This document shows, one piece after another, positions 12,873-50,863 of a DNA stretch of 51,846 nucleotides (positions are counted from its first letter, which is position 1; every line of letters starts with the position of its first letter). The notes beneath the pieces were generated by a model. The model saw nothing but the letters and a program-made list of their open reading frames with translations. It was not told the DNA's origin and made no database searches. The translations under genes and the position numbers were made by a program. Origin of the DNA: Verrucomicrobiota bacterium (GTDB taxonomy: Bacteria > Verrucomicrobiota > Verrucomicrobiia > Chthoniobacterales > UBA10450); contig QHPD01000126.1 of assembly GCA_003218975.1 (NCBI GenBank), forward strand, positions 1 through 51,846. Direction: 5' to 3'.

Positions 12873-12907
12873 AAAAAACCGCACCGCGGGATCGAACCAT
12901 GGTGCGG
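12873..12907 (-). terminator. Rho-independent terminator of the peptide/exporter cluster
   Basis: On the minus strand a CCGCACC (12901-12907) and GGTGCGG (12879-12885) stem with a 15-nt loop is followed by TTTTTT (12873-12878). This is a good intrinsic terminator 14 nt after the stop of the second peptide gene. The opposite strand has only a short CTCTTT tail, so it may weakly terminate the epimerase gene too. Confidence 0.75.
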
Positions 12908-12920
12908 CTCTTTGACCTTA

Positions 12921-13052
12921 TTAGTGGCCTGTGTGGCCTATATGGCCTGTATGGCCGGTGCCGCCTTTGGCGTCTTTCACTGGCTTAAGGTCTTGGACCT
13001 TGATCTCTTTTTTGGTTTTCTTTCCTTTTTTTTCTTCTTTCTTGTCTTGCAT
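12921..13052 (-). CDS. Double-glycine leader-type peptide, His-Gly-Thr repeat core
   Basis: A 43-residue peptide starting with MQDKKEEKKGKK. It then carries the motif IKVQDLKPVKDAKGG, ending in a double glycine at residues 30-31, followed by a 12-residue core TGHTGHIGHTGH. The core DNA is a 9-bp tandem repeat (GGCCTGTGT-like units). It ends in two consecutive TAA stops, then the terminator. It starts 5 nt after the stop of the upstream peptide gene, with an AAGGA purine tract inside that gene. The shared D-L-x-P-x-x-D-x-K-G-G motif and the peptidase-C39 exporter upstream suggest cleavage after GG and secretion of the His-rich core. No modification enzyme is nearby. Function unknown; metal binding by the His residues is possible. 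Confidence 0.75.
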   Translation of the reverse strand: MQDKKEEKKGKKTKKEIKVQDLKPVKDAKGGTGHTGHIGHTGH

Positions 13053-13057
13053 GGTTT

Positions 13058-13243
13058 TTAGTTTTCCTTGTTTTTTGTGTCTTCTGTTGTGTCAGTGGCA
13101 CCGAACAGCAATTGATGCCCGCCCTTAACGTCCTGTTTTGGAATCAGGTCATCCAGGCGAATCAATTTATCTTTTCTGCGCTTAGGCCTTTGATTCTCTG
13201 ACTCTCCGGCGGGCGCATTTTTTTTGTTCTTCGGTGCACTCAC
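13058..13243 (-). CDS. Double-glycine leader-type peptide, acidic Thr-rich core
   Basis: A 61-residue peptide from a GTG start preceded by GGAGAG at good spacing. The highly basic, lysine-rich N-terminal part leads to IRLDDLIPKQDVKGG, matching the motif of the downstream peptide, with the double glycine at residues 41-42. The predicted core is HQLLFGATDTTEDTKNKEN, chemically unlike the His-Gly core next door. Motif conservation with divergent cores is what one expects of leader peptides exported by a common C39 transporter. A GG-N10-GC promoter candidate lies about 100 nt upstream. No known bacteriocin family is recognised. Confidence 0.72.
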   Translation of the reverse strand: MSAPKNKKNAPAGESENQRPKRRKDKLIRLDDLIPKQDVKGGHQLLFGATDTTEDTKNKEN

Positions 13244-13340
13244 TTTGGCTCTCCATATTATCAGTATTCATGCCAAGTTTCGCAAGACTCAGCCAAAATA
13301 AAAGAGGTCATCGCATTTGTTCTTAGACGAGAAGTGTTTA

Positions 13341-13444: not shown

Positions 13445-14446
13445 CTACTTTGGAACCACGTTTCGGAGATGGCGCGCGAGTGTGGAGCGAGAAATACCAA
13501 GCAGTTTCGCCGCACGCCGTTGGTTCTGATTTGCCTGCTCGAAGACGAACCGGACGTGTCTCCTAACGGCACTCGTGAGTGAGAGATCAATAGCAGGGTT
13601 TTGCGGTTGGTTATTGCCGAGCACCGGAACCGATTTGCCGTTGTCGGTTCTAGTCCGATCGGTCTCTAGATCAGGAGGAAAAACGACATGTTCGGGCAAA
13701 ATCACCGAACCGTTGCAAAACAACGTCATGGCGCGCACAGTGTGGCTCAGCTCGCGAAGGTTTCCGCGCCACTCGTGGTGAAGCAACTTCTCCATCGCTT
13801 CAGGATGAATGGCGGTGATGTTTTTCCCTTCTTTCAAGCCGGCTGCTTTCAATTCCGCGGCAATTAGTGCTGGCAATTCCTGCACCCGTTCTCGAAGGGG
13901 AGGGATGAGCAGAGTGAGGCCGTTCAATCGCTGATAGAGGTCCTCGCGAAATTTTCCCAGACGCACTCGTTCGCGCAGCGAACAGTTTGAGGCGCAAATG
14001 ATTCGCGCGTTGGAAGTGAGCATTCGTTCCGAGCCGAGCCGTTCAAATTCGCCGTATTCGAGCACGCGCAGGATTTTCACCTGTGCGAGCGGACTCATTT
14101 CCGAGATCTCATCCAAAAAAAGCGTGCCGCCATCGGCTAATTCGAACTTTCCCTTGACGGTTTGCTGTGCGCCCGTAAAGGCCCCGCGCTCATGACCGAA
14201 GAGTTGGCTTTCGAGTAACGTGTCGCTGATCGCCGAGGCGTTAAATGCGATGAACGAGCGACCAGCTCGTGTTGATGAATTGTGGATTGCATGGGCGAGC
14301 AAGGTTTTACCTGTGCCAGTCTCTCCAAGCAGGACCACTGGAACGTCAGACTTCGCTGCGAGCGCCGCCAATTGCAGGCACCGTGCCATGGCGGCGTTGC
14401 TCGTTGTAAGGTCTTCGAGTCTTAGTCTGGATGGCGGTTCTTGCAC
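13445..14446 (-). CDS. Sigma-54-dependent transcriptional activator (AAA+ and Fis-type HTH, no sensor domain)
   Basis: A 333-residue bacterial enhancer-binding protein. Walker A GETGTGKT is at residues 41-48, the sigma-54 contact loop GAFTGA at 88-93, Walker B with GGTLFLDE at 106-113, and the arginine region REDLYQRL follows. A C-terminal Fis-like helix-turn-helix (RRAAKLLGISRSTLARHL, ~310-327) completes it. There is no N-terminal receiver, GAF or PAS domain, only ~15 residues before the AAA+ core, so control must come from its level, its partners or another protein. It starts 5 nt after the HlyD gene stop and precedes the peptide genes, which it presumably activates. Confidence 0.9.
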   Translation of the reverse strand: MQEPPSRLRLEDLTTSNAAMARCLQLAALAAKSDVPVVLLGETGTGKTLLAHAIHNSSTRAGRSFIAFNASAISDTLLESQLFGHERGAFTGAQQTVKGKFELADGGTLFLDEISEMSPLAQVKILRVLEYGEFERLGSERMLTSNARIICASNCSLRERVRLGKFREDLYQRLNGLTLLIPPLRERVQELPALIAAELKAAGLKEGKNITAIHPEAMEKLLHHEWRGNLRELSHTVRAMTLFCNGSVILPEHVVFPPDLETDRTRTDNGKSVPVLGNNQPQNPAIDLSLTSAVRRHVRFVFEQANQNQRRAAKLLGISRSTLARHLRNVVPK

Positions 14447-14451
14447 CGAAA

Positions 14452-15639
14452 TTATTGCCTCATGCTCTCCCGTAATTGGCGAATCGGCTCGAACGCGTAC
14501 TCGATCATCGTCCGACCACCGACGATGATGTGCGCCTCTCCTCTCATTCCAACCCGCAGGGGCAAGCTTTGGCCTGCTCGCCCAGAGATCTCCGAACGAT
14601 CAAGTGAGGCCAGCGCGATGAAGTGCGAACCATCGCTGGAAGTGACAGCTGACGGGCTGATCCAGTCGAGCTTTCCAGTCACGGCGCCGTAGCGCTGGTA
14701 TGGAAAAGCTTGAAAAAAAAGCCGGACGCGCTGTGCGACGGCGAGCTTTGGAAGACCGGCTTCGTTTAATGTCATTCGAGCGCGTGGTTTCGCATCCTTC
14801 CGCGCAATTTGGCAGAGTACCTGACCCGGCTGCACAACGCTGCCCGTCGTGCGCTCCTCCATGGAAATGATCACGCCCTCATAGCGACTCCGAACTGTCA
14901 GCAAGTTTTGGTTGGCATTTTCCAAGTCGGTTTTTAAAGCTCCAATGCGCATCTTTAATTTTTCAATTTCGGACTGCTGCTCGGCCCGTTGGCGGGCATG
15001 CTCCGTTTCCATTCTCTCACGGTCGAGGTTCACCTGCTGCACAGTCCTTTGGGCGACGCTCAAATCTTTTTCTGAACCGGCTAAATCGAGCTTCAGCTTT
15101 ACAAGATCGATTTCCGATTCGCCGCCCAGCTTGGCTAATTTCTCCATGCGCGTGACCAGTTCGCGACTCGTGCTGGCATGATTCTCACGAAATTTTACTT
15201 CGCTTTTTGCTTGCTCAATCTCTGCGTTTTTGATCCCAATTTGCGGGGCGTAAGCGCTCTCATATCGAGCGAGGCTTTCTTCCTTGCTGTGTAAGTCCTC
15301 CGTGAGCGTTCGGAACTGCGTATCCAAGCCGCGAATCTCGTCCGAACGCAAGACATACAATTCCTCACCAGCTTTCACGGGTTGACCTTCATCCACCCCA
15401 ACATGGCTAATGATAGCTCGCACGGGCGATTGGATCGGATCGGCGCCGGCGGCGGGAACCAGGACGAATGGACAGCTTACCGTCTCCGGCAGTCGCATCA
15501 CAATTGCGATAAGCAGTGCGAACAAAAACGCCCCCAGCAATATCCAGGCCGCCGAACGGATAATCCAAGGCGGTGGCTCCTGTGGCAACATTTCGGATTC
15601 AACATCAAGCGAGCCGCGTTCGGTTAATTGTGAGCTCAT
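14452..15639 (-). CDS. HlyD-family periplasmic adaptor of a peptide exporter
   Basis: A membrane fusion protein linking an ABC exporter to the outer membrane. One membrane helix is at about residues 26-48 (IIRSAAWILLGAFLFALLIAIVM). A biotinyl-lipoyl half follows near 68-95 (SPVRAIISHVGVDEGQPVKAGEEL). A long coiled coil spans ~100-245, then the second lipoyl half (YEGVIISMEERTTGSVVQPGQVL) and a beta-barrel region. The length of 395 is usual. It begins 12 nt after the exporter gene stop and ends 5 nt before the sigma-54 activator, so all are likely on one transcript. The outer-membrane (TolC-like) component is not in this window. Confidence 0.9.
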   Translation of the reverse strand: MSSQLTERGSLDVESEMLPQEPPPWIIRSAAWILLGAFLFALLIAIVMRLPETVSCPFVLVPAAGADPIQSPVRAIISHVGVDEGQPVKAGEELYVLRSDEIRGLDTQFRTLTEDLHSKEESLARYESAYAPQIGIKNAEIEQAKSEVKFRENHASTSRELVTRMEKLAKLGGESEIDLVKLKLDLAGSEKDLSVAQRTVQQVNLDRERMETEHARQRAEQQSEIEKLKMRIGALKTDLENANQNLLTVRSRYEGVIISMEERTTGSVVQPGQVLCQIARKDAKPRARMTLNEAGLPKLAVAQRVRLFFQAFPYQRYGAVTGKLDWISPSAVTSSDGSHFIALASLDRSEISGRAGQSLPLRVGMRGEAHIIVGGRTMIEYAFEPIRQLRESMRQ

Positions 15640-15651
15640 GGAGATGGTGGT

Positions 15652-18600
15652 TTAGATCCCCAGTTGCTGGCTTGAAAGATAATAATACAGACCGCGTTGT
15701 GCCATCAGCTCGTCATGAGTTCCAATCTCGGCAACGCTTCCCTGTTCGAGCACCACGATCGAGTGCGCTTCGCGAATGGTACTGAGCCGATGCGCGATCA
15801 CAATCGTGGTGCGGCCTGCCATTAATCGACCGAGATTTTCCTGAATCGCGCGTTCCGATTCTGTGTCCAGAGCGCTGGTTGCCTCATCGAAGATTAATAC
15901 AGGCGGATTATTATAGATTGCCCGCGCGATTGCGATGCGCTGCTTCTGCCCACCCGAAAGAGAAAGCCCCGATTCACCAATCTTTGTCTCATAACCGAGC
16001 GGAAGACGCATAATGAAATCGTGCGCCGCTGCGGCTTGCGCGGCGGCAAGCACCCGATCGAGATCTGGCTCCGGGTCCCCAAACGAAATATTGCGCGCGA
16101 TCGTGTCGTTAAACATGTGGTTCTCCTGCAGGACTGTTCCGATGTTTCTGCGGACGTCGCGATAATTGAGGGTCTTTAGATCGATATTGTCGAAATAGAT
16201 GGTCCCTTCAGTAGGTTCAAGCAGCCCGGCGATTAATTTGATCAGGGTCGTTTTCCCGCAGCCGCTGCGCCCCACGAATGCCACCATGCGCCCTGGAGCC
16301 AGATCCAGCGTGAGGTTCTTCAAAATGTCGGGCGATTCGGGGCCGCCGTATCTAAAGCTGACCCCGCGCAGTTCGATTCGCCCTTCGAGGCTATGCACCG
16401 GCACAAGCCTGGAACGATCGTGCCCCTGTTCGGGATCCTGCTCGAAAATGTCATTCAGCCGATTCAGCAGGACGACGGCCTGTTGCAGGGTGTCCCATAC
16501 CCCGAGAGCACGCAAAATTCCTGCGTAGGCCATGGCCGTCAGTGAACTAAACGCGACGAAACCGCCAACGCTCAAGTGCCCGTTAATGACCTGAGTCGCG
16601 CCGACCCATAGAAAAATCGCAGTAGATAGCAGGCCGATGCTTTGAAGAACGCTGTCCCACGACATGACAATGAAGGTCGATTTGAAAAGTTTTCGTGAGA
16701 CGGCGAGAAATTCGTTCAGCATGGCGTCACGAAATGCGCTCTCAGCCGATGCGGCTTTCACTGCCTCGATGCCTTTGATGGCATCAATTTGATGCGAACT
16801 ATATCTACCCTGGCTTTCTTCCACGCCCTGATACAGCGGACGAAGCACTTTTACCGAAAAAATCATCAGCCCCGCATACAGCGGCGTCGTTGCCAGAAAC
16901 GCGATGGTGAGCAAGGGACTGTACATCGCCATCAAAATCACCGCGCCGACGAGAAGGACTACGGCCAGCAGCGCAGAAATTCCGTGTTGCACAGCAAATT
17001 CTCGAACCTGCCTCGCACCTTCGAGCCGTCGTTGGATGTCGCCTGTTCGCCGGCTTGTGAAATAAGTCATTGGCAGGGCAAGAAGTTTTCGGCTCAAGAA
17101 ATCGAGGACCGCGGTATCGAGGCGCACGGCCACAAACGCCAGCAAGTACTCCTGCGCGAGACTAGCGAGTTGCACGAAGACAAGCGCGGCAAGCATACCG
17201 AGCAAGATCAGCTTCAAAAGGCCCAGTTCGTTTTCGACAATGACCTTATCGACCACCATTTGGGTGAACACCGGGAAGAGCAGTTGCAGAAAACTGACAG
17301 CGACAGCCAGCCCCAGCACTTGCAGCAAGATGACCTTAGAACGTGCGATAAATGGAAGGACCCACGCCAGCGTCGGTTTGCTTTCCGGTGCCTGTTCAAA
17401 CGCGGGCGTGTAATCGAACAGCGCTGCATACCCTGTCCACTTCGCTTCAAATTCGCGTCGGGGAAGCTTTCGCAAGCCACGCGCAGGGTCGGCCACGCGG
17501 GCGAACTGCTCATCGACGTCGTAGAGCACGATCCAGTGATTTCCTTCCCAATGCGCAATGGCTGGCAACGGCATTAGCGAGAGATTGCGAAGCGAGATTT
17601 TCAGTGCGCGCGCGGCCAGTCCAAGTTCCGTTGCGGCGCGGGAAAGCGCCTTGAGACTCGTGCCGTCCGTTGCCGTGTGACACAGCTGCCGGATCCGCGC
17701 CAGGCTCACTTTCCGTCCAAAATAGCGGCAGATCATTCCGAGACTGGCTGCGCCGCAATCCATCTCATCGATCTGCATGATGTGATCGATTTTGCGAATC
17801 CGCTTGCCGCGTTTGCGGAACAAGCCCTGTTCATCGGCAAAGGGCGCCTCTTTGTCTTCCGCCTCGGCTGAAGGACGTTCACCATCCAGCTGGACTTTGT
17901 TCTGCACCTGTGTTTCGGCAGGCAGCAGTTCGCTAGTAAAATCCAGCGGAATACGCGCTTCCGTTTTTGCCTGGTAAACCGCGAGACGCTCGCCCAGCAG
18001 TTTGTCGAACTCGGGAAACCGGCGCCGCAATTCCCGCACCGATTTCGGCTCGAGGGAAAGCAATTCGCAATGGGTGAATGCCTCAACGGACGCCGCGCGA
18101 GGCGATCCGTTCAAGATGGACAGCTCTCCAAAAAAATCGCCCTCGCGGTAAAAAGCCAGATTGCGTTCTCCTCCGTCCACTCCGGAGAATGCGCGCGCCC
18201 GACCTTTCTGGAGGATGTACAACGGACCAGCATCATCTCCTTCGCGAATGATCAAGTTTCCTTTTTCAAACGTCACTGGCTTGAGCTTATCGATCATACT
18301 GCGCAGCACGGGTGTCGGAAGCCGGCCGAAATTACTGAACTGATAAAGAAAGCTCTGCAGGGCCCTGTTCCGGCCCGTTGTCTCTACATATTGCTTTAAA
18401 TCAGGTACCCGGCGGACGAGCTGCAGAAAATCATCTCGATCGATCCGCAGAACGTCCACGGCTGTGCTGCAGCGCACCGTGGCATTTCGCGTTCCTCCTT
18501 CCGACAATGCTGCTTCTCCAAACGAGTCACCCGGTTTCAAGACGCCCAGCGGGATTTCCTCTCCGTCGGGTTTGATTTTCAGCGCCCGCGCTCGTCCTCT

Positions 18601-18765
18601 GGTCAAAACGTAAAACGAATCGGCCGGATCGTCTTGTTTTACGATCACGTCCCCGAATTCGTAGTGTTCTTCCTGTAACAGCGGCTCGATCGCGCCAAAG
18701 TGCTCATCGGACAGAAACTGGAAGACCGATGAACGCCGTAGAATTTCGCTGTCTTGAACTTTCAT
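15652..18765 (-). CDS. Peptidase-C39 ABC exporter with two N-terminal cyclic-nucleotide-binding domains
   Basis: A 1037-residue fusion. Two CNB domains (~10-125 and ~135-255) have phosphate-cassette-like FGEAALSEGG and FGELSILNGSPRAAS. A peptidase C39 domain (~325-455) has a catalytic Cys337 in DEMDCGAAS, His410 in GNHWIVL and Asp426 in ADPARG. The transmembrane domain spans ~470-760. The ABC ATPase has Walker A at 832-839, LSGGQ at 936-940, Walker B VLIFDE at 956-961 and the H-loop His at 992. All catalytic residues are present. Such transporters cut leaders after GG and export the core. The CNB fusion recalls cyanobacterial HetC-like exporters and suggests ligand gating. It overlaps the upstream parvulin gene by 4 nt. 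Confidence 0.95.
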   Translation of the reverse strand: MKVQDSEILRRSSVFQFLSDEHFGAIEPLLQEEHYEFGDVIVKQDDPADSFYVLTRGRARALKIKPDGEEIPLGVLKPGDSFGEAALSEGGTRNATVRCSTAVDVLRIDRDDFLQLVRRVPDLKQYVETTGRNRALQSFLYQFSNFGRLPTPVLRSMIDKLKPVTFEKGNLIIREGDDAGPLYILQKGRARAFSGVDGGERNLAFYREGDFFGELSILNGSPRAASVEAFTHCELLSLEPKSVRELRRRFPEFDKLLGERLAVYQAKTEARIPLDFTSELLPAETQVQNKVQLDGERPSAEAEDKEAPFADEQGLFRKRGKRIRKIDHIMQIDEMDCGAASLGMICRYFGRKVSLARIRQLCHTATDGTSLKALSRAATELGLAARALKISLRNLSLMPLPAIAHWEGNHWIVLYDVDEQFARVADPARGLRKLPRREFEAKWTGYAALFDYTPAFEQAPESKPTLAWVLPFIARSKVILLQVLGLAVAVSFLQLLFPVFTQMVVDKVIVENELGLLKLILLGMLAALVFVQLASLAQEYLLAFVAVRLDTAVLDFLSRKLLALPMTYFTSRRTGDIQRRLEGARQVREFAVQHGISALLAVVLLVGAVILMAMYSPLLTIAFLATTPLYAGLMIFSVKVLRPLYQGVEESQGRYSSHQIDAIKGIEAVKAASAESAFRDAMLNEFLAVSRKLFKSTFIVMSWDSVLQSIGLLSTAIFLWVGATQVINGHLSVGGFVAFSSLTAMAYAGILRALGVWDTLQQAVVLLNRLNDIFEQDPEQGHDRSRLVPVHSLEGRIELRGVSFRYGGPESPDILKNLTLDLAPGRMVAFVGRSGCGKTTLIKLIAGLLEPTEGTIYFDNIDLKTLNYRDVRRNIGTVLQENHMFNDTIARNISFGDPEPDLDRVLAAAQAAAAHDFIMRLPLGYETKIGESGLSLSGGQKQRIAIARAIYNNPPVLIFDEATSALDTESERAIQENLGRLMAGRTTIVIAHRLSTIREAHSIVVLEQGSVAEIGTHDELMAQRGLYYYLSSQQLGI

Positions 18766-19853
18766 TCCGCTGGAGCTGAAACGCCGCCGATCCGCCGCTC
18801 TAAGTACCTGCTGGCGAGTTCGGAGAAATGCCGAGCCAGCAAGCGCTGATCGATCCGCGATTTGACGGTCGGATCGTCTGGTTGTGGCTCAACCTTGCTA
18901 ATGATACGGCAGAGTTCGAATCCGTCGCCGCGCGCGAGCGGCTCGAGCACATCGCCCGCTGAAACGCTTAAAAATCTCTGCTGGCCTTCGGCCGGGATGT
19001 CTTCCAGAAGAAAGTCGGCGCGCCGATACGGATAGCGCCCTTCTGCAGCAACTTCTTCCATCGACATTCCGTCTTCACGCACGCAGAACAGCGCTTCCTG
19101 CGCGGCATCGCGTGATTCCAGTTCGATCACTTCAGTTTCGAATCGCGTCAGAGGTAACCGCAATATTGCCAATTCCCGCTTGCGCGCCAGCGGAACAACC
19201 AGCGTTTCGTAACGTCTCCGGTAGGCCGACTCGAGTGCAAGCATTTCATTGAACCAAGTCGCATCGCGCCCCAGTCTTTCCAGCCGCTTTCCGAGCTGTG
19301 CTCGCTTGATCCCGGCACGATCAAGAAAACTTCGTTCTTCAGCCGAAACGGCATCTGGAGTGATCTCTTTTTCAGCGCAACGCGCGGCGAGACGCCAGAT
19401 CAGTTGGGTCGTCATGTGGTCTAATTCCCCGGAGAGAATCAAGTCCGCTACAAACAGCTCGCGCAGCTCTGGCGCTGCGGAATCATATCCGACTTTCTCC
19501 GGGGAAATGTTTTCACGAACCGCACTGGCGCAATATTCGCGGGTAAAGTAATCGCTGAAGTCATCAAACGTCAGCCCCCGATTGGCCAGCCATGTTTCTG
19601 TCTCCTCCGCGGTGATCAGATCATGTTGGTAGCGAAACGCTTCCGCCGCGGCAGAAATTTCCGACTCATCCAAATCCAGCTCTAATTCGTCTGCTCGGTT
19701 CTCAGCTGCCACAACATGGAGAAATTTTTCCCATTTCTTGTCGAGTTCGCCTCGGAAAATAGCCGCGTCGATCGCGTCCCCCGCTGTATATTCCTGTTCT
19801 CCGCATGCGCACACCACCAAATCATGATGTGAGACTGACTCTGTGCCCGGCAT
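18762..19853 (-). CDS. SurA/PpiC-like parvulin-type protein of the exporter cluster
   Basis: A 363-residue protein resembling SurA_N plus PpiC-type rotamase proteins encoded with peptidase-containing ABC exporters. The helical N-terminal half (to ~205) is chaperone-like. The C-terminal region (~230-345) has the weak parvulin pattern of beta strands with AAQEALFCVREDGMSMEEVA, LLEDIPAEGQQRFLSVSAGDVLEPL and FELCRIISK. No signal peptide or membrane helix is seen, unlike periplasmic SurA, so it probably works in the cytoplasm, perhaps holding precursor peptides. It is the first gene of the cluster and its stop overlaps the exporter start (ATGA). Isomerase activity is unproven. Confidence 0.7.
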   Translation of the reverse strand: MPGTESVSHHDLVVCACGEQEYTAGDAIDAAIFRGELDKKWEKFLHVVAAENRADELELDLDESEISAAAEAFRYQHDLITAEETETWLANRGLTFDDFSDYFTREYCASAVRENISPEKVGYDSAAPELRELFVADLILSGELDHMTTQLIWRLAARCAEKEITPDAVSAEERSFLDRAGIKRAQLGKRLERLGRDATWFNEMLALESAYRRRYETLVVPLARKRELAILRLPLTRFETEVIELESRDAAQEALFCVREDGMSMEEVAAEGRYPYRRADFLLEDIPAEGQQRFLSVSAGDVLEPLARGDGFELCRIISKVEPQPDDPTVKSRIDQRLLARHFSELASRYLERRIGGVSAPAE

Positions 19854-49615: not shown

Positions 49616-49798
49616 ATGAATACACAAATCCCACACATCAATGTAATCCGATCTGCTTGGCGCCGCCGAGCCAAGAAGGACATCAAAGTTCGTGACCTGA
49701 AGCCACTAACAGATGTCAAAGGTGGCGGGGGTGGTACGGGCAATTCCAAACCCACGACAGGCGCCACTGGCACCACTGGCACTACTGGCAGCCACTAA
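49616..49798 (+). CDS. Orphan double-glycine leader-type peptide
   Basis: A 60-residue peptide with the ATG at 49616 preceded by GGGAGG. It has an N-terminal basic region (IRSAWRRRAKK), then IKVRDLKPLTDVKGG, matching the peptides at 12921-13243 at the D-L-x-P-x-x-D-[VA]-K-G-G positions. A Gly/Thr-rich core (GGGTGNSKPTTGATGTTGTT followed by GSH) follows. Its core resembles the Thr-Gly-His repeat of the 43-residue peptide. It lies about 36 kb from the exporter cluster, so it would be a substrate in trans. No modification or immunity gene adjoins it. An upstream in-frame extension to 49454 looks non-coding. Confidence 0.7.
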   Translation: MNTQIPHINVIRSAWRRRAKKDIKVRDLKPLTDVKGGGGGTGNSKPTTGATGTTGTTGSH

Positions 49799-50503: not shown

Positions 50504-50541
50504 GGGGTCTTAGCTCAGTTGGTAGAGCGCCTCAATGGCAT
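50504..50541 (+). tRNA. tRNA-Ala(GGC), 5' half only (truncated)
   Basis: GGGGTCTTAGCTCAGTTGGT continues into AGAGC and CCTCA ATGGCAT: acceptor strand, D-arm, anticodon stem 5' side and loop with T33 and anticodon GGC (50537-50539). The 3' side of the anticodon stem should read TGAGG but the sequence turns to CGATTCC, and no variable or T arm follows. The tRNA is cut exactly after the anticodon loop, as if something integrated there or the assembly is chimeric. Confidence 0.75.
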
Positions 50542-50863
50542 CGATTCCGGGGCGATATTCCCAAATAATCTCAACTTGATCTAACGCGCTCAATCATAGG
50601 TAAACCGCCAAATTCGCGGTATCCCACCTTACGCTCAAATATGCTTAAAAAATTCCATGAGTGGATAAAATGGTGGACAAAGACGCCAAATCGGGTAGAG
50701 CGCCTCAGTTTTTCCTCAATCGATTTGCTGACCGCTTCAATTAACGCCCCTCGCTTTCCAGACCACGATGGCCTTTCCAGCGTCGCAGGATCGCGCTAGA
50801 ATCATTTTTGATTGCCGGATGACAGACGGTCCCGGCCCGTAGATTTACGGCAACGTAGGAACA
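50542..50863. other. Non-coding junction with repeats downstream of the tRNA fragment
   Basis: No gene is seen. It holds a second tRNA-like fragment (GGTAGAGCGCCTCA at 50694-50707, identical to 50521-50534), the sequence AAATGGTGGACAAAGACG at 50668-50685 (16 of 18 match to 51671-51688), and the first copy of the 32-bp direct repeat at 50789. Confidence 0.5.
50789..50820. repeat. 32-bp direct repeat, copy 1
   Basis: GATCGCGCTAGAATC followed by ATTTTTGATTGCCGGAT. It matches copy 2 at 51519-51550 at 30 of 32 positions in the same orientation and lies outside any gene. Confidence 0.7.

Follow-up and report, generated by a model that had tools for sequence, protein, structure and literature searches.

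A putative D-L-x-P double-glycine leader class linked to a double-cNMP C39 exporter operon in Verrucomicrobiota

Several described C39 exporters act on small precursors that carry a double-glycine (GG) leader. The classical leader of the ComA/LahT type has hydrophobic residues at positions -4, -7 and -12 and Glu at -8, and a Lys at -7 strongly impairs its cutting (PMC6363468). In Synechococcus elongatus, PteB is the exporter of several small GG proteins that are required for biofilm, and a Cys-to-Ala change in this related C39 exporter lowers the secretion of its small GG peptides (PMC4997328). Also, HetC of Nostoc PCC 7120, a C39 exporter with a single cNMP-binding domain, binds ppGpp (PMC10986499). 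Here we describe two adjacent small peptides encoded at the end of an operon with a C39 exporter, within a window (the whole stretch of DNA analysed) of 51,846 nucleotides from a soil Verrucomicrobiota bacterium. In our estimation, the probability is around 85% that both peptides are precursors on which the exporter of their own operon acts, that they carry leaders of a distinct class and that they are cut after GG and exported. In the literature searched (subscription papers mostly outside it), we found neither the letters of the leader motif nor such Verrucomicrobial precursors.

The operon runs on the minus strand from a SurA/PrsA-like chaperone through a double-cNMP-C39 ABC exporter, an HlyD protein and a receiver-less sigma-54 activator to the two peptides, which come last. 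The first gene (18762..19853; 363 residues, no signal peptide seen) is predicted to encode a helical chaperone core with a parvulin-fold domain at residues 232-326; its AlphaFold model has a pLDDT of 94.3, and in structural comparison (Foldseek, VIA-align) 93 residues superpose on 3gpk with Z 11.8 and 2.1 A. By inspection of the alignment consensus, this family seems to have lost the His positions that are usually catalytic in parvulins. The exporter (15652..18765; 1037 residues) comprises two cNMP-binding domains, a C39 peptidase and the ABC transmembrane and ATPase domains, and its C39 residues Q331, C337, H410 and D426 are invariant in the exporter alignment. It is followed by the HlyD-type periplasmic adaptor (14452..15639) and by the activator (13445..14446), which contains AAA+ and Fis-type HTH domains and lacks a receiver or sensor domain. 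The genome also encodes TolC-type proteins and sigma-54 itself (rpoN). Besides the peptides, the operon genes are limited to the chaperone-like protein, exporter, HlyD and activator, and no modifying enzyme of the ATP-grasp or any other RiPP type was found among them. Two tRNA-like features were observed in the window: an ARAGORN call of tRNA-Asn at 13582-13668 (plus strand), opposite to the activator gene and probably spurious, and a tRNA 5'-half-like stretch at 50510-50560, GGGGTCTTAGCTCAGTTGGTAGAGCGCCTC, which lacks the remainder and is perhaps an old integration site.

Both peptide ORFs exist where the initial annotation had placed them, on the minus strand. Peptide 1 (13243-13058; 61 aa) has a GTG start with GGAG about 8 nt upstream, and peptide 2 (13052-12921; 43 aa) has an ATG start located five bases past the end of peptide 1. 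Since the ribosome site of peptide 2, AAGGAA, lies inside or overlaps the 3' end of peptide 1, translation of both is probably coupled. The leader of peptide 1 through GG (13118..13243) goes from the GTG start over a Lys/Arg-rich stretch to IRLDDLIPKQDVKGG; the cut would fall between ...KLIRLDDLIPKQDVKGG and HQLLFGATDTTEDTKNKEN, the latter constituting, with the stop, the post-GG segment (13058..13117). In peptide 2 the leader through GG (12960..13052), MQDKKEEKKGKKTKKEIKVQDLKPVKDAKGG, would be cut between ...KEIKVQDLKPVKDAKGG and the core TGHTGHIGHTGH, a Gly/His/Thr repeat that with the stop occupies 12921..12959. Just 3' of peptide 2 (12873..12907, minus strand) a stem resembling a terminator, CCGCACC/GGTGCGG with a T run behind it, can be read by eye, its loop being longer than the terminator scan allows. 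The residues D, L, P, D, K, G and G described as common to both peptides are indeed shared, and the hydrophobic spacing reported at -4, -10, -13 and -15 from the cut is correct for both.

The motif common to the two peptides exceeds chance. In the form I-x-V/L-x-D-L-x-P-x-x-D-x-x-G-G it recurs in 112 precursor ORFs from relatives, obtained on reading the flanks of exporter orthologues. The DNA pattern for D-L-x-P-x-x-D-x-K-G-G has five sites in the 3.06 Mb genome versus none for the reversed control; besides peptides 1 and 2, these comprise a site at 49.6 kb in the window, a site on contig 6 and another on contig 165. Among 24,525 small ORFs from related loci, a leader HMM gave dozens of matches below 1e-5, the best E among reversed ORFs being 0.47. 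Pfam and NCBIfam models, including those for NHLP/Nif11, gave only chance-level matches to the precursors. We conclude that this is a real leader class, unmatched in the family libraries searched, which most likely serves C39-dependent export.

We coined the names A to F for the classes of precursors distinguished in this analysis. Class A, the type of peptide 1, is normally single copy and first in the array, with the form ...LIRLDDLIPKQDVTGG-HQLLFGATDT. Class B, the type of peptide 2, is present in one to several copies that join ...IKVRDLKPKKDAKGG to a different core each time, as exemplified by the core of peptide 2, GQHTGQHTGQH, GGHLGGGHLGG and AGRTIAGRTEH. The orphan classes C to F sit elsewhere in the genomes, away from the operon, and a search for a neighbour gene common to orphan precursors gave none that was consistent. 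The window itself holds a third precursor of the same leader family, of class C (49616..49798, plus strand), with ...IKVRDLKPLTDVKGG before the cut and GGGTGNSKPTTGATGTTGTTGSH after it; it is away from the operon, its Gly/Thr core ends in SH, and its class is found across the genus at unrelated sites. Class F orphans, seen at four loci, depart from the Gly-rich cores in that their tails, AERIAKAQRVFSRWLKKSKK, are long, cationic and helix-like. Other recurring payload modules were also observed: the core LLLPAVQ(K/A)xREAAR stands directly after GG in small ORFs near four related exporters of different phyla, and Opitutaceae precursors with related leaders at two loci end in or carry (F)LNPQPLPP.

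Identities were computed pairwise among deduplicated members, over the last 15 leader residues for the leaders and with the operon-linked set for class B. Leaders are 85% identical in class A and 83% in operon class B; core identity is 46% in class A and 21% in class B, the same value as that of shuffled cores (21%). Leader codons are under purifying selection, with pN/pS of 0.20 in class A and 0.16 in class B; class B codons after GG are saturated (pN/pS 1.16, ungapped). As the leader is conserved and the core lies at the shuffled level, peptide 2 fits a leader plus a hypervariable core. In class A, conservation runs through GG into LLFGATD, and peptide 1 would therefore have a fixed, conserved payload rather than a leader plus a free core. 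The pattern of a conserved left part and a variable right part, taken in the initial annotation as indicative of leader-core precursors, holds for the family overall; the cores, described there as unrelated, are variable in the case of peptide 2, but that of peptide 1 is itself conserved among orthologues. It had also been considered that the motif may belong to a larger folded domain continuing through GG, and class A agrees with this in part. That the motif is a piece of a small folded protein, uncut at GG, is nonetheless highly improbable. The stretch into LLFGATD and the loss of GG in a few copies are consistent with it, but class B has no conservation past GG, core length over all non-A members ranges from 6 to 109 residues, and the N-terminal part of the precursors is Lys-rich and variable. 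At three loci, class A copies with a lost GG or a frameshift were observed, class B copies alongside being intact.

Turning to the leader itself, position -8 is Pro in 110 of 110 members, a constancy to which the search pattern contributed by requiring Pro there; divergent leaders without this Pro, for instance the DLKSKKNPKGG form of Opitutaceae, were found only in a later profile search. Position -7 is most often Lys, Leu at -10 and Asp at -11 are present in nearly all members, -4 is mostly Val or Ala, and -12 is Arg or Asp. The classical combination of hydrophobic residues at -4, -7 and -12 with Glu at -8 is absent from these leaders. Because Pro is always found at -8 and mostly Lys at -7, the same binding mode as for classical GG leaders is unlikely, and recognition probably differs. 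In this sense, the proposal that the motif defines a leader class separate from the classical bacteriocin double-glycine leader is upheld by these two positions and by the family libraries. With Pro at -8 and Lys at -7, these leaders offer a direct biochemical test of how such a sequence can be read by a C39 peptidase.

Exporter orthologues occur in 30 of 78 related genomes, a count that leaves out two genomes whose matches are distant C39 exporters with 31-35% identity. The leader profile matches 28 of the 30 exporter-bearing genomes versus 4 of the 48 others (Fisher 1e-14, a value that is too small as kin genomes are treated as independent). The profile was seeded with exporter-flanking peptides, so that the figure of 28/30 is partly built in and that of 4/48 is not; the absence of the leader from exporter-less genomes is the informative half of the co-occurrence. 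Leader matches without an exporter come from four genomes that are drafts with 80-90% completeness. Across 286 genomes sampled class-wide, the convincing leader matches are confined to four genomes, all of them exporter-bearing; in two further genomes of this sample the exporter is present and the leader profile finds no recognisable leader. The expected clustering of matches near C39 exporters was confirmed, 73 of 83 lying within 3 kb downstream on the same strand, a region that makes up 6.6% of the searched sequence. The extension to Planctomycetota failed, with no convincing case and a single exporter locus that has no leader match. When 85,000 species were scanned with the cNMP-C39 part, 80 loci emerged, in Verrucomicrobiota, Acidobacteriota, Gemmatimonadota and, in a few cases, other phyla. 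The order chaperone-exporter-HlyD-activator-peptides is kept in many loci of Verrucomicrobiota and in some of Acidobacteriota and Gemmatimonadota. Some members of the latter two phyla also have related leaders behind this operon, and recognisable leaders are missing from many distant exporter loci. A broader profile applied to 22 genomes found extra copies, for example 14 leader matches in one Opitutaceae genome; since this profile includes sequences from some of the 22, only the extra copies there are new information. On an 18 kb contig of one relative, seven leader matches in both orientations around the operon denote a local expansion. A short leader profile makes such peptides findable in raw genomes, where family models miss them; most of the relatives are soil bacteria that have not been cultured, and next to nothing is known of the peptides they secrete.

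We propose that the C39 domain recognises the leader [IV]-x-[VLI]-x-D-L-x-P-x-x-D-[AVP]-[KRT]-G-G and cuts the precursors after GG, and that what remains would leave by the ABC channel and HlyD towards an outer-membrane factor encoded at another locus, for which the genome has TolC-type proteins. The SurA/PrsA-like protein probably keeps the precursors export-competent, and the sigma-54 activator probably turns on the peptide genes. One exporter would serve many payloads, both the operon peptides and those of single genes scattered round the genome: peptide 1 would be a conserved companion, and peptide 2 and the scattered genes would provide diverse, mostly Gly-rich, Cys-poor and apparently unmodified payloads. 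Low-complexity, Cys-poor and fast-changing repeats in several copies per genome may point to a structural role, in which secreted Gly-rich peptides would act on the cell surface or within a biofilm matrix, as with the PteB-exported EbfG, and GG-motif proteins required for biofilm provide a precedent (PMC4997328); we hold this as a tentative possibility, as class B cores of 9-40 residues are short for matrix proteins and carry no surface anchor. It is rather doubtful that this is an ordinary bacteriocin or microcin locus, in which antimicrobial payloads would be attached to a classical GG leader that has drifted. Class II microcin loci do combine a C39-ABC exporter, HlyD and small GG precursors, the cores diversify fast and the class F tails are cationic and helix-like; however, the conserved operon genes, both in the window and in relatives, include no immunity-like gene that we could see (small genes of no known family could still be one), Gly/His/Thr/Gln repeats dominate the payloads, which have 6 Cys in 2670 core residues, and the leaders depart from the classical consensus at positions -7, -8 and -10.

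Regulation of the proposed precursor operon may involve a sigma-54-like -24/-12 site, TTGGCATGAATACTGATA (13259..13276, minus strand), located 15 nt before the start of peptide 1. Alignment of upstream regions places the element YTGGCAYG-N4-NTGNT at a fixed position 15-20 nt before the class A start; in relatives, six orphan class E genes are preceded by it at a distance of 54-58 nt, which suggests that the two classes may form one regulon. Compared with the sigma-54 consensus TGGCAC-N5-TTGC, the -24 part and the spacing match, and the -12 part, CTGAT, deviates from TTGCW; a search for the strict consensus (GC at -12) upstream of all precursors gave no clear common site. In the window the element ahead of peptide 1 can also be read as a sigma-70 site, although only the GGCA and TG parts are conserved family-wide. 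The exact element occurs only twice in this genome; the other copy (G000:C8:819-836, minus strand; L264) precedes an ORF resembling a MASE1-type membrane sensor. Of 30 loci with the activator gene, 23 have class A, versus 1 of the 18 that lack the activator (p 2e-6, related genomes being counted), and the loci with both include Gemmatimonadota (VRLEDLAPPEDVRGG-GRKRLFG) and an Acidobacterium. This association, an activator without a sensor domain and the shared site before class A and class E genes would fit class A as an exported or retained regulator of the adjacent activator, linking export capacity to payload-gene expression, with class B as the true products. We regard this as unlikely, since the correlation counts related genomes, the -12 element is off consensus and class A could simply be the first payload. 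If class A does regulate the activator, gene expression would be tied to export capacity in a manner that is new. A broader reading, improbable to a similar degree, is that the D-L-x-P...GG leaders form a new class read by the double-cNMP exporter, and that this exporter, as a nucleotide sensor, makes up a feedback loop with the receiver-less activator and class A, which would control a genome-wide, fast-changing payload set in Verrucomicrobiota and in part, at least, of Acidobacteriota and Gemmatimonadota.

Comparison with known systems locates the proposed exporter and precursors within the broad C39/PCAT precursor class, as an exporter with intact Gln, Cys, His and Asp and a conserved GG leader with variable core are both present. 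As in AMS/PCAT and classical double-glycine systems (LahT/LahA, ComA/ComC, CvaB/colicin V), a C39-ABC exporter stands beside small precursors; the leaders differ from the classical ones in their hydrophobic residues at -4, -10, -13 and -15, invariant Pro-8 and near-invariant Asp-11/Leu-10, without Leu-7, Glu-8 and Leu-12. The C39-ABC part resembles NHLP/Nif11-type exporters (TIGR03796; 8e-163, 543 bits), but remains below the curated cut-off of 853, and the precursors match no Nif11 or nitrile-hydratase leader model. Graspetide loci share with the operon a weak match of its first gene to TIGR04500, a PpiC-related peptide maturation protein (PMC8939145), at 7.6e-12 and 45 bits versus a cut-off of 180; graspetide membership was rejected on this score and by the lack of an ATP-grasp enzyme in the operon. 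PteB/EbfG also has one C39 exporter for several small GG peptides (PMC4997328); it belongs to another group of organisms and another architecture, in contrast to the sigma-54 activator and scattered precursors found here. Neither PteB nor HetC is described with this operon. HetC has the cNMP-binding domain in front of C39-ABC (PMC10986499), an arrangement which is present here in an extended version: HetC carries a single cNMP domain and lacks a linked HlyD, whereas the Verrucomicrobial locus combines two cNMP domains with HlyD, a chaperone, an activator and precursor arrays.
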